Source of the DNA: Streptomyces sp. GC420 | GTDB taxonomy: Bacteria; Actinomycetota; Actinomycetes; Streptomycetales; Streptomycetaceae | Direction of reading: 5' to 3' | DNA: 64,000 nucleotides | Assembly: GCF_009916105.1 (NCBI RefSeq) | Contig: NZ_JAAAXQ010000004.1 | Coordinates: 1 to 64,000 of the forward strand | Shown here: positions 7,791 through 11,165 of the stretch, one piece after another | How positions within the stretch are numbered: the first letter of the stretch is position 1 | Layout of the letters: each line of letters starts with the position of its first letter | The notes under the pieces: model-generated | What the model saw: only the letters and a program-made list of their open reading frames with translations | Databases searched by the model: none | Told to the model about the DNA's origin: nothing | Translations under genes and position numbers: made by a program

Positions 7791-9020
7791 ATGTATGCCT
7801 GGCCCGCTTCTGAGGTCCCCGCCCTGCCCGGCAAGGGCCGCGACCTGCAGATCCACGACACCGCGACCGGTGGGCTGATCACCCTCAGCCCCGGCCCCGT
7901 AGCCCGTATCTACGTCTGCGGCATCACGCCGTACGACGCGACCCACATGGGTCACGCGGCGACCTACAACGCGTTCGACCTGGTGCAGCGCGTGTGGCTC
8001 GACACCAAGCGGCAGGTTCACTACGTCCAGAACGTCACCGACGTCGACGACCCACTGCTGGAGCGCGCGGTACGCGACGGGCACGACTGGACGGAGCTGG
8101 CGCAGCGTGAGACCGCCCTGTTCCGGGAGGACATGACGGCGCTGCGGATGCTCCCGCCGGAGCACTACATCGGTGCCGTGGAGGCCATACCGGGGATCAT
8201 CCCGCTCGTCGAGCGGCTCAGGGACGCCGGCGCCGCCTACGAACTCGAGGGCGACATCTACTTCTCCGTCGAGTCCGACCGGCACTTCGGCTCGGTGTCC
8301 CGGCTCGACGCCGAGACCATGCGGCTGCTCTGCGCCGAGCGCGGCGGCGACCCGGACCGGCCCGGCAAGAAGAACCCGCTGGACCCGATGCTGTGGATGG
8401 CCGCCCGCCCGGGCGAGCCCAGCTGGGACGGGGGCTCCCTGGGGCCCGGCCGCCCCGGCTGGCACATCGAGTGCGTGGCCATCGCCCTCGACCACCTCGG
8501 CATGGGCTTCGACGTCCAGGGCGGCGGTTCCGATCTGGCCTTCCCGCACCACGAGATGGGCGCCTCGCACGCCCAGGTGCTCACCGGCGAGTACCCCATG
8601 GCCAAGGCGTACGTGCACGCCGGGATGGTGGCCCTCGACGGCGAGAAGATGTCGAAGTCCAAGGGCAACCTGGTCTTCGTCTCCAGGCTCCGCGGGGACG
8701 GCGTGGATCCGGCGGCCATCAGGCTCACGCTCCTCGCCCACCACTACCACTCCGACTGGGAGTGGACCGACGAGGTGCTCCAGGAGGCCGTCGAAAGGCT
8801 CGGCCGGTGGCGCTCCGCCGTGTCCCGGCCCGACGGACCCCCGGCCGAGGCGCTGGTCGAGGAGATCCGCGCCGCCCTGGCCGCCGACCTGGACGCCCCG
8901 GCCGCGCTGGCCGCGGTCGACCGCTGGGCCGAGCTCCAGGAACGCGAGGGCGGCACGGACGAGGGCGCGCCCGGCGTGGTCTCCCGGGCCGTCGACGCGC
9001 TCCTCGGCGTCGCGCTCTAG
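7791..9020 (+). CDS. mshC: L-cysteine:1D-myo-inositol 2-amino-2-deoxy-alpha-D-glucopyranoside ligase (MshC)
   Basis: 409-residue mycothiol-biosynthesis ligase that joins cysteine to GlcN-inositol with ATP. It derives from class I cysteinyl-tRNA synthetases. The HIGH-type THMGH (51-55), the KMSKS signature (285-289) and probable zinc ligands Cys43, Cys227 and His252/253 are present. It lacks the long tRNA-binding C-terminal domain, as expected at this length. A TTACGCT element 12 bp upstream and the absence of a good ribosome site hint at a very short or absent leader. Confidence 0.95.
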
Positions 9021-9195
9021 GCCCGTCTGACAAATCTCGCCTGCCCCGCGACGCCTGGCACGCGCCCTCGCTGCGTTGTCGGGATCGTCCGAGTAGGCCC
9101 ACTACGAGGACGACCCTCCGCCTTGCGATCGCACGCACCAGACGCCGCGGACCCCGCCTCCGGGCGGACGGCGACCCCTGTCGGACACGGCCTAG
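9021..9195. repeat. Long imperfect palindrome (hairpin element) between convergent genes
   Basis: The ends form imperfect terminal inverted repeats (9025-9041 versus 9170-9186). The interior continues the symmetry: 9046-9070 pairs with 9131-9157, with differences mostly of the kind that keep G-U pairing in RNA. The apex is CGTCC-GA-GTAG (9086-9096), loop GCCCA, then CTAC-GA-GGACG (9102-9112), with facing GA/GA mismatches. It also contains GCGATCGC (9125-9132). I recall similar sequences between genes in other Streptomyces genomes. It may act as a terminator, a structured RNA or a MITE-like element; no coding frame is convincing. Confidence 0.55.
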
Positions 9196-9223
9196 GACCG
9201 CGGGCGGCAGCCGCACGGGCGGC

Positions 9224-9290
9224 GGGACACGGAAGGCGGCGTCGGCCGGACCATGTGGTCCGGCCGGCGCCGCCGGTGTACGCGTGTCCC
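9224..9290. terminator. Large bidirectional hairpin terminator before PAC2 stop
   Basis: A 19-bp stem (9235-9253 with 9256-9274, one G-T pair, apex CCATGTGG) is nested in an outer GGGACACG/CGTGTCCC stem (9224-9231 with 9283-9290). It lies 5 bp from the PAC2 stop and between converging genes, so it probably ends transcription from both sides. Confidence 0.6.
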
Positions 9291-9294
9291 GGGC

Positions 9295-10272
9295 CTACTC
9301 CTCGTCGGAGTCGTCCTGCCGCTCGTCGCGGGGCGGCTTCGGCGGGCGGGTCCGTCCGCCGGAGCTGTCGCGCAGATACGTCGACGAGTCACCGGTCTCG
9401 GTGGCGTGCGGGCCGCCGGCCGGGCCGGGCTGCCCGTCCCGGCGCCGCAGATAGCGTTCGAACTCCCGGGCGATGGCCTCGCCCGACGCCTCCGGCAGCT
9501 CCGCGGTGTCCCTGGCCTCCTCCAGCGTCTGGACGTACTCGGCCACTTCGCTGTCCTCGGCCGCCAACTGGTCGACGCCCAGTTGCCAGGCCCTCGCGTC
9601 CTCCGGCAGCTCGCCCAGCGGGATCCGCAGGTCGATCAGGTCCTCGAGACGGTTCAGGAGGGCCAGCGTGGCCTTGGGGTTGGGCGGCTGGGAGACGTAG
9701 TGCGGGACGGCCGCCCACAGGCTCACCGCCGGCACACCCGCGTGCGTGCACGCCTCCTGGAGGATGCCGACGATGCCGGTGGGCCCCTCGTAGCGGGTCT
9801 CCTCCAGGTTCATCGTGCGCGCCAGTTCGGGATCCGAGGTGACGCCGCTGACGGGGACCGGCCGGGTGTGCGGGGTGTCGCCGAGAAGGGCGCCCAGGAT
9901 GACGACCATCTCGACGCCCAGTTCGTGCGCGAAGCCGAGCAGTTCGTTGCAGAACGAGCGCCAGCGCATGGACGGTTCGATCCCGCGCACCAGGACGAGG
10001 TCGCGTGGCTTGTCGCCGCCGATGCGCACCACCGAGAGGCGGGTGGTGGGCCAGGTGATCTTGCGGACGCCGTTCTCCAGGAACACCGTGGGCCGGTTGA
10101 CCTGGAAGTCGTAGTAGTCCTCGGCGTCGAGCGCCGCGAACACCTCGCCCTTCCATTCCCGGTCCAGGTGCGCGACCGCGGTGGAGGCGGCGTCGCCGGC
10201 GTCGTTCCAGCCCTCGAACGCGGCCACCATGACCGGGTCGATCAGCTCGGGAACCCCCTCGAGCTCGATCAC
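9295..10272 (-). CDS. PAC2-family (proteasome assembly chaperone 2-like) protein
   Basis: 325-residue protein. The GTG start at 10272 (VIELEGVPELIDPVMV) has a GGAAGGAGG site. The core (AAFEGWNDAGDAAS, VVILGALLGDTPHTRPV, EGPTGIVGILQEACTHAG) is the PAC2 family pattern. The C-terminal ~60 residues are charged and disordered (RRRDGQPGPAGG, KPPRDERQDDSDEE). Eukaryotic PAC2 helps build 20S proteasomes; the role of the actinobacterial family is not known to me. It lies about 23 kb from the proteasome genes in this window. Confidence 0.9.
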   Translation of the reverse strand: MIELEGVPELIDPVMVAAFEGWNDAGDAASTAVAHLDREWKGEVFAALDAEDYYDFQVNRPTVFLENGVRKITWPTTRLSVVRIGGDKPRDLVLVRGIEPSMRWRSFCNELLGFAHELGVEMVVILGALLGDTPHTRPVPVSGVTSDPELARTMNLEETRYEGPTGIVGILQEACTHAGVPAVSLWAAVPHYVSQPPNPKATLALLNRLEDLIDLRIPLGELPEDARAWQLGVDQLAAEDSEVAEYVQTLEEARDTAELPEASGEAIAREFERYLRRRDGQPGPAGGPHATETGDSSTYLRDSSGGRTRPPKPPRDERQDDSDEE

Positions 10273-10439
10273 CCAGTGCCTCCTTCCGAAGTTCCATACC
10301 TTGCGCCCCCAGCCTACGGCTTTCGAGGGGGCGGGCCGCAGCCCCTTACGGGGGTGGTCGGGCGTCCGACCACGAGCCGGATCGCCGGCGGACCACCCAC
10401 AGACGGAGAATCCATAGCCCTTCAGGGCGATGGAGGAGG

Positions 10440-11165
10440 TCAATGCTCCACGCTCGCGATGTGCACCGTGGCCCAGGACCTGGCCGCCTCCGCGTCCCGG
10501 TCGCGCAGCGCCGCCAGGATCGCCCGGTGCTCGGTGAGGGTGCGGCTGACCGCGTCCTCCTGCGTCAGCCCACGCCAGATACGGGCCCTGGTGGTCGGCC
10601 CGGACAGCCCGTCGAGCGGCGAGCAGAGCACCGAGTTCCCGGAAGCCCGCACGATGCCCCGGTGGAACTCCAGGTCACAGGCGACGAGTTCCTCCACGGA
10701 CGGATCCGGGCCCGGCGCGTCCAACTGCCCGGACAGCGCGTCCAGTTCCGCCTCCGTGGTCAGGGCGCTCGCCATCGCGGTGGCCGCGGGCTCCAGGATC
10801 CGGCGCACCGCGAGGAACTCCAGCACCGTGTCGTCGCGGTGGAAGTCGACGACGAAACTGAGCGCCTCGAGCAGGAGTTGCGGGTCCAGACTCGTGACGT
10901 ACGTACCGTCGCCCTGCCGTACGTCGAGGATCCTCGTCAGCGACAGCGCCCGCACCGCCTCGCGCAGCGAGTTGCGGGACAGCCCCAGCTCGGCGGCGAG
11001 TTCGCTCTCCTTGGGCAGCCCGTCGCCGGGGCGCAGCTCGCCTGAGACGATCATCCCCTTGATCTTCTCGATCGCCTCGTCGGTGACCGCCGTGACGGAT
11101 CCTTCCCGGGTGCGCAGGCACCTGCGTAGGACGCGGAGACAGACATCCGATGTCTGCCTGCGCAC
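10440..11165 (-). CDS. FadR/GntR-family transcriptional regulator (FCD domain)
   Basis: 241 residues with a winged helix-turn-helix near the N-terminus (LPKESELAAELGLSRNSLREAVRALS, and VRQGDGTYV for the wing), followed by an FCD ligand-binding domain of helices with likely metal ligands (DLEFHRGIVRASGN, TEHRAIL). The start is uncertain. GTG 11165 is the first plausible start after the upstream gene. No ATG, GTG or TTG occurs close to the conserved TDEAIEKIKG start of the domain, although a GGAAGGA ribosome-like site lies right before it. A 17-bp palindrome sits in the 5' end. Confidence 0.87.
   Translation of the reverse strand: MRRQTSDVCLRVLRRCLRTREGSVTAVTDEAIEKIKGMIVSGELRPGDGLPKESELAAELGLSRNSLREAVRALSLTRILDVRQGDGTYVTSLDPQLLLEALSFVVDFHRDDTVLEFLAVRRILEPAATAMASALTTEAELDALSGQLDAPGPDPSVEELVACDLEFHRGIVRASGNSVLCSPLDGLSGPTTRARIWRGLTQEDAVSRTLTEHRAILAALRDRDAEAARSWATVHIASVEH
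11140..11156. promoter_or_regulatory. 17-bp palindrome, candidate GntR operator
   Basis: CAGACATC and GATGTCTG are exact inverted arms around a single central C. Size and symmetry fit FadR/GntR-family sites, and the position at the beginning of the regulator gene suggests autoregulation. It would lie inside the coding region if GTG 11165 is the true start. Confidence 0.45.

Follow-up and report, generated by a model that had tools for sequence, protein, structure and literature searches.

The gap between mshC and a PAC2 family gene in Streptomyces sp. GC420 opens with a 179-bp palindrome at 9017-9195 that has CTAG at both termini, contains no transposase and is too small for any gene, and the question raised by this locus is what kind of element it is and what its fold is for. 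All coordinates given without a locus handle are those of the window, the whole 64,000-base stretch of DNA that was analysed. The reading that we consider probable is that the palindrome is a non-autonomous IS5-type MITE carrying a conserved one-strand-folding core and moved in trans by IS5-family transposases; judged by sequence comparison, the IS5-type MITE identity is well supported for the group of copies and likely for the 9017-9195 copy itself. The initial annotation had described an imperfect palindrome with terminal inverted repeats at the opening of the gap, and this description stands. Of the extent that it gave, 9021-9195, the palindrome holds but the left border does not, as the left CTAG at 9017-9020 was omitted, and the transposon-type character of the element, its CTAG target sites and its IS5-type ends were missed. 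The locus is built as follows.

7791-9020, plus strand: mshC (TIGR03447)
9017-9195, no strand: whole element with both CTAG borders, from the sequence, the own-genome copies and the delimitation of relatives
9017-9020, no strand: left CTAG target copy, in which TAG (9018-9020) is the mshC stop codon
9021-9039, plus strand: left terminal inverted repeat GCCCGTCTGACAAATCTCG, which pairs with the right repeat in the folds of both strands
9046-9149, minus strand: conserved RNA-like core hairpin, a full-length match to model R1
9057-9065, minus strand: core 3' arm GCGCGUGCC (GCGUGCGUGCC in many relatives), from fold and alignment
9073-9080, minus strand: internal loop, 3' side, reading GA-CAA-CGC on the minus strand, with CAA invariant in the 31 rows of alignment A3
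9081-9116, minus strand: apical stem-loop, GUAG/CUAC in this copy and GUAC/GUAC in others
9131-9139, minus strand: core 5' arm GGUGCGUGC, some of whose pairs with the opposite arm are U·G/G·U wobbles
9154-9168, minus strand: side hairpin on one arm only, with single compensatory changes in relatives
9174-9191, minus strand: right terminal inverted repeat GCCGTGTCCGACAGGGGT (minus-strand reading), from sequence and fold
9192-9195, no strand: right CTAG target copy; CTAGGCCGTGTCCGACA lies at C444:9179-9195 on the minus strand
9235-9274, no strand: separate near-perfect hairpin with a 19 bp inverted repeat, outside the element, between it and the PAC2 gene
9295-10443, minus strand: PAC2 family gene (PF09754)

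Against model R1 the element scores 118.7 bits when read on the minus strand and 28.7 bits on the plus strand (9047-9150). Across 31 aligned rows the apical pair 96-102 is CG in 18, GC in 11 and a gap in 2, and in the side hairpin the pairs 29-43, 30-42 and 31-41 show one double change apiece among relatives. Inside the element there is no Rfam match at E ≤ 1, and a weak match to a microRNA family at 9221-9284 falls outside it and far under the cut-off. Neither a sigma-70-like promoter nor an intrinsic terminator (hairpin with U-tract) was found in 8900-9400. The separate hairpin at 9235-9274 has comparable counterparts, judged by eye, in the same gap of some element-free relatives and is perhaps an older two-way terminator of the mshC-PAC2 gap. 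At another locus, L297, this gap holds a different long inverted repeat, of the GGGGACGTGTCGGGGGGTGTCCG type, without the core.

The suggestion in the initial annotation that the palindrome is a dispersed element proved correct. In its own genome, blastn returned 42 matches at E ≤ 10, including 9017-9195 itself and split pieces, and among the 150 candidates scored out of 17059 the core covariance model found at least 33 places at E ≤ 0.01; the own-genome copies examined have ends of the kinds CTAGGCCGTGTCCGACA, CTAGTGCCGCGTCAG and CTAGGGCGTGTTTCGAA around a related interior. Matches are present in 11 of 21 genomes when the own genome is taken with 20 relatives. Across the order, 28 of 41 genomes, among them the own genome, contain model matches, with up to 53 in a single genome. 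By genus, these comprise 23 of 26 same-genus genomes (own included) and 5 of 15 others, with a model match in 0 of 10 genomes of one other genus of the order; phylum-wide, 5 of 119 genomes match the model. The element occurs in 48 plasmid records, all of them Streptomyces, while phage records gave no match and viral contigs gave 0 for one exact core pattern. The records in the exact-pattern scan, among the matches listed, belong to Streptomyces and Actinacidiphila.

Two distant hairpins in other families of the phylum, L354 365-467 (genome G347) and L355 1501-1607 (genome G338), match model R1 at 49.2 and 40.1 bits, respectively. Their outer stems differ, and the inner GAUCGCAAGGCG (GAGCGCAAGGCG in L355) and CAACGCnGCGA are kept. 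The L355 hairpin begins at the stop codon that closes a 494-codon open reading frame and has a short terminal repeat of its own. No second convincing copy was found in the 400 kb sampled of the 4.78 Mb of G338, where the next match (L390, 30.2 bits) is a short plain hairpin, and L355 had no match among plasmids. No Rfam family was found for L354, L355, L361 or L386.

The borders of the copies carry the case for mobility. The fetched loci held 197 core hits, 3 of them without delimitation, and 154 distinct elements remained after filters. CTAG stands on the left in 105 of these 154 and on the right in 106, under a delimiting score that favoured CTAG, and 67 of the 154 are 181 bp long. Where TA is present at both ends (n=100), C precedes and G follows in 86, and each of the remaining 14 departs from this at just one of its ends, in keeping with a two-base TA duplication. 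The mshC-PAC2 gap could be compared through the PAC2 gene, for which a search matched in 61 of 61 genomes and 30 loci were fetched. The gap is readable in 9 of these, own included, with 13 uninformative as they have no mshC in the stretch and 8 as mshC is arranged differently; the 8 other readable gaps are without the core (by pattern). One of the relatives, G064 (L286), provides the one empty site that was read, in which mshC ends in the same CTCTAG with a different sequence behind it. Genomes G303 and G304 contributed seven fetched copies of 68-73 bp that have full ends and no core and stand at separate CTAG sites. These core-less copies from two genomes suggest that an element can be mobile without the core, and we infer that they moved as such rather than losing the core in place each time.

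Several arrangements of copies deserve mention in their own right. L161 contains two identical 181-base copies, at 898-1078 and 1296-1476, whose starts are 398 bases apart. At 5701-7357 of L172, a segment of about 1.3 kb is flanked on each side by a core-bearing element, the two having the same outer ends, and the whole is a possible composite unit. Many copies of family B (L014, L016-L019, L021-L030) contain one or two small hairpins of the GGGGG(C/T)ACCTCC...GGGGGAG type within their cores, as does L321, and these look like a second tiny mobile hairpin living inside the first.

CTAG also borders IS elements with IS5-family transposases in these genomes. The transposase frames of L041 (in the own genome), L225 and L227 all score above the cut-off of NCBIfam NF033580 IS5_3, and the ends of these IS elements are CTAGGGTCCGTCTTCAAA for L041, CTAGGCCGTGTCCGTAAAGTC for L225 and CTAGGGCGTGTCCGCAAAGT at the left of L227; the ends of L231, L238 and L240 are in the same style. 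Over 20 bases, the left end of L227, CTAGGGCGTGTCCGCAAAGT, is identical to a single end each of L091 and L105 and to both ends of L093, three copies found in records other than that of the IS; four of the 20 common bases are the CTAG, and the right end of L227 differs from its left. The end of the 9017-9195 copy is of a kind exemplified by CTAGGCCGTGTCTGACAAAT, and the end CTAGGCCGTGTCCGTAAAGTC of IS L225 is similar to it. Among 295 genus genomes, no IS with the exact end of the 9017-9195 copy was found, and its 17-base end occurs in 5 of the 295 (own included), in a single place each and never paired. At the 13 own-genome DDE_Tnp_1 loci, the end matches amount to two with three mismatches, both inside the stretch that matches the transposase. 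A different kind of end, CTAAGGGCTGTCCCGCAAT, bounds the core-bearing element in L241 and resembles the CTAAGGGYTGTCCCGTAA ends of L273, whose transposase scores 122.1 against NF033581 IS5_4, below the cut-off of 140.

The core model matches in 5 of 73 transposase loci, at 4 distinct places, and the core as part of an autonomous IS was considered and rejected: in L041 and its second copy L230, in L225 and in L241, the core belongs to a separate abutting or adjacent element. The transposase locus L051 is the locus beside copy L007. In L041 (1470-2613) and L225 (1442-2529), an IS5-type IS and a core-bearing element abut at a common CTAG, one of the two having inserted at the other's border. In the mechanism that we propose, IS5-family transposases (NCBIfam IS5_3 type, DUF4096 plus DDE_Tnp_1) would recognise the terminal repeats in trans, and insertion at CTAG would leave TA, seen as CTAG, at both ends; at mshC, the element would have inserted into the CTAG of the stop codon with TAG retained.

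Folded as RNA, the element reaches -95.5 kcal/mol (z -6.1) on the plus strand and -115.5 kcal/mol (z -7.2) on the minus strand, in each case with 0 of 200 shuffles as good. The minus, or core, strand gives the better fold in 120 of 121 stringent copies, with a mean gain of 21.4 kcal/mol, and DNA folding parameters return the same preference in 120 of 121; this folding count excludes the 9017-9195 copy, which was added for the 122-copy and 38-copy counts on the arms. Consensus folding of the core yields -56.9 kcal/mol on the core strand versus -13.7 on the other. The initial annotation had noticed C/T and A/G differences between the arms that keep wobble pairs, and such differences are indeed present, but the G·U pairs form on the minus strand and not on the strand as written. 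In a strand-neutral alignment, the arms of the 9017-9195 copy hold 10 G·U versus 6 A·C on the minus strand, and those of 122 copies hold 1047 versus 521 on the core strand, with G·U exceeding A·C in 115 copies and falling below it in 5. Inside the arms of 38 less redundant copies, G·U is the more frequent in 34, the less frequent in 3 and equal in 1. Both arms read GUGCGUGC in many copies, where the opposite strand would show A·C, and the arms thus pair mutually through U·G/G·U steps, a tandem arrangement typical of RNA helices. A confinement of this asymmetry to the core was not clearly upheld, as the outer positions of the arms are biased too: the outer 24 positions of the 38 thinned copies hold 37 G·U versus 19 A·C, the outer and inner ratios in this set are alike (Fisher p 1.0), and across all 122 copies the outer ratio is even above the inner (p 0.025).

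Two alignments bear on selection for this fold. A3, the core alignment, contains 31 sequences, namely 30 of the 34 listed rows together with the 9017-9195 copy, and leaves out L121, L147, L153 and L172 (arm gaps, likeness or insert); A1 contains 31 of 75 rows of one length class after removal of near-identical sequences, with L153 and L198 excluded for their different build. In A3, 95.2% of cells are paired, 19 of 38 pairs have changed on both sides, and all five measures of covariation were reached by 0 of 500 shuffles, which control for relatedness only in part. Sliding the partner by 1-3 columns lowers the A3 score from 0.236 to at most 0.087. In A1, both-side changes occur in 24 of 67 predicted pairs on the core strand (energy -120.2) and in 23 of 63 on the other strand (energy -96.3), which also shows double changes because covariation of the end repeats and the apex does not depend on the strand read. 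Change in step within the end repeats would be demanded by transposase recognition alone, so the argument for RNA rests on the core. In the internal stem of A1, 27 cells depart from the commonest pair into G·U and 7 into A·C; the end-repeat stem is about even, with 9 and 7.

The way in which the copies were gathered shapes how these figures are to be read. Most of the aligned relatives come from a scan with an exact 21-base core piece plus TACTCG, and model R1 was built mostly on them, so the invariance of those bases is partly by construction. The remaining relatives come from blastn with the 9017-9195 copy, which likewise favoured shared interiors, and the copies are kin to one another, such that covariation and G·U counts are not independent events. 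Among 12 copies found by blastn, pairs whose 20-base ends are 0.32-0.79 identical have cores that are 0.57-0.81 identical; six of those pairs are reversed, with ends 0.74-0.79 and core 0.59-0.63 identical.

The facing GA/GA reported for the apex is present on the minus strand of the 9017-9195 copy, as GCG-GA-GGG opposite CCC-GA-CAA-CGC (TC at 9117-9118 and 9079-9080 on the plus strand), but its reading as a tertiary-contact motif fell away: L004, L054, L057 and L090 have other bases at this position, and the GA/GA is therefore not conserved across families. The CAA next to the GA is invariant in 31 rows and the following CGC nearly so, in a stretch that the loose search pattern covered. A kink-turn reading of GA/CAA was set aside, as the bulge lies 3' of the GA, opposite to the usual kink-turn order, and the GA is not conserved. 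With respect to selection, the initial annotation had set a folding RNA against a single-copy sequence or homologues free of covariation; the repeat is multicopy, and its homologues covary, in agreement with selection on RNA folding. The substitutions in the core preserve a one-strand fold, which suggests that the core is probably under selection as a single-stranded nucleic acid, for which we infer RNA as most likely over single-stranded DNA. Selection on the one-strand structure is thus supported by the alignments, with relatedness and the choice of copies as caveats.

The placement of copies relative to genes was read with a simple codon-position caller, which reproduces mshC exactly and calls a later start for the PAC2 gene. 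Of 118 copies placed, 41 have convergent neighbours and 12 divergent ones, tandem neighbours account for 29 in one orientation and 24 in the other, 2 overlap a call and 10 have a missing neighbour; 33 of 70 and 39 of 65 start within 10 bases of a neighbour's stop. The target word itself is scarce: the window contains 12 CTAG (the two of the element included) versus about 165 expected from base composition, a depletion strong enough that a CTAG-targeting element would rarely hit genes, and 882,701 bases hold 137 free CTAG sites, 19 in coding sequence and 30 at stops. Among the 98 free non-coding sites with both neighbours, 18 are convergent and 29 divergent. Measured against them, the copies over-use convergent and under-use divergent gaps (106 vs 98; Fisher p about 0.002 each), a contrast that is weak evidence on preference because the free sites, which may include borders of undelimited copies, are those that insertion left over. 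The tandem copies are unbiased in their orientation to genes (29 vs 24, p 0.58), which leaves a one-way cis role without support and favours a function that serves the element itself or operates in trans over one exerted on its neighbours; a fixed-orientation, one-way terminator or 3' UTR element was rejected as the main reading on this count. An orientation linked to replication was likewise rejected: in G012, none of the five positions assumed for the origin gave a bias, with counts of 22 vs 17 (n=39) for an origin at 4.2-4.5 Mb and 20 vs 19 or 19 vs 20 for one at 4.8-5.0 Mb.

These observations can be set against explanations in which the core does other work, or none. The position directly behind mshC might invite comparison with a fixed, riboswitch-like cis-regulatory RNA of mshC or the PAC2 gene, yet this is extremely improbable, with the core absent (by pattern) from the readable mshC-PAC2 gaps of 8 relatives and the element itself free of Rfam matches at E ≤ 1. 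An element useful to the host at 3' ends, such as a terminator or mRNA processing site kept after stops and between convergent genes, would account for the excess of convergent copies (41 of 106, with 12 divergent, versus 18 and 29 of 98 free sites) and for the 33 of 70 and 39 of 65 copies that start within 10 bases of a stop. We regard it as unlikely, as CTAG is itself rare and mostly non-coding (19 of 137 coding, 30 at stops), the same distribution would follow if insertions into promoters were selected against, the free sites used for comparison are the leftovers of insertion, the copies show no orientation preference (29 vs 24), and the separate hairpin at 9235-9274 already precedes the PAC2 gene. 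The selected strand could instead be DNA, in the form of a structured single-stranded site acting as a replication, conjugation or transposition signal, for which the same strand preference under DNA folding parameters (120 of 121) and the elements in 48 Streptomyces plasmid records can be cited; the absence of a replication-direction bias in G012 (22 vs 17; 20 vs 19 or 19 vs 20) and the tandem U·G/G·U pairs typical of RNA helices make it very unlikely. The core may finally have no RNA function, the palindrome and its G·U pairs having been fixed in an ancestor and then inherited or arm-converted, with a mutational strand bias. Close relatedness among the copies, the long stem-loop transcripts of other bacterial MITEs (described in the accessible text of PMC2229807), the apparent mobility of core-less copies and the about even departures of the end-repeat stem (9 G·U vs 7 A·C) are all in keeping with this account. 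It is nonetheless quite unlikely in view of the 19 core pairs, out of 38, that have changed on both sides (a level reached by 0 of 500 shuffles), the 27 versus 7 cells into G·U and A·C in the internal stem, the 7 cells in which G to A turns G·U into A-U, unlike a one-way C to T bias, and the persistence of the inner motif with a different outer stem in L354 and L355.

We return to the IS5-type MITE with a conserved core as the preferred reading. The core on the minus strand would form a long rod that contains wobble pairs and internal loops and is capped by an apex that varies, and its RNA would most likely come from read-through of neighbouring genes. As a tentative extension, transcripts across the core may fold and then be cut by RNase III or protected there, which would make insertions near gene ends tolerable; this extension is preferred by analogy with Correia and ERIC elements as presented in the accessible text of PMC10969869 and PMC2229807. 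It is also conceivable, if rather doubtful, that the core is a portable, strand-specific RNA module, kept while ends swap between IS subfamilies and acting in trans as cargo. The end types involved would be the CTAG-type IS5_3, the CTAAG-type (L241) and other hairpin frames (L354, L355), and the target of such a core would be, for example, a ribonuclease or a transposase and not the neighbouring genes.

Comparison with known systems places the element close to IS5-derived MITEs, with which it shares small size, absence of coding sequence, terminal inverted repeats, a short target duplication and ends equal to those of transposase-bearing IS elements in related genomes. Unlike them, the Streptomyces element has an interior common to copies with differing ends, its core covaries, and in the loci examined the core is found next to the IS and not within it. 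What usually identifies a MITE is its conserved ends, with an interior of minor importance; the Streptomyces element shows the opposite, with several IS5-type end kinds around one interior that covaries as a one-strand structure. It resembles REP/BIME sequences as a set of dispersed, extragenic, imperfect palindromes, but its terminal repeats and TA duplication point to a DDE transposase rather than to the RAYT type.

The ERIC/IRU/RU-1 repeats of enterobacteria are, in the accessible text of PMC2229807, about 127 bp long with TA termini, a long stem-loop and effects on mRNA; by description, the likeness lies in the termini and the stem-loop, whereas ERIC effects are orientation-dependent in that text, the orientation of the Streptomyces element is unbiased, and host, CTAG target and many end types differ. 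The Correia/NEMIS element of Neisseria is a MITE whose transcripts can be cleaved by RNase III, according to the accessible text of PMC10969869 and PMC2229807, and the likeness, again by description, is that of a MITE; cutting by RNase III is a Correia feature and conjectural for the Streptomyces core. QMITE2 of Coxiella burnetii is likewise a MITE with a core (113-145 bp) and a folding transcript (about -113 in a figure legend), and differs in its host and in its direct repeats of 7-9 bp, within the accessible text of PMC10969869. We found no published name for the repeat in a literature search that lay outside most subscription journals, and it is not named in the accessible text of PMC1590033, PMC10969869, PMC2267715, PMC2229807, PMC6798073 or PMC9208149.

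If this picture is real, Streptomyces and related genera would harbour an abundant, apparently unnamed RNA-like repeat that is put near gene ends by a rare target word. Such a repeat would be of relevance for annotation and terminator prediction in these genomes, and would provide a natural case in which to test what a transposon gains from a structured RNA.
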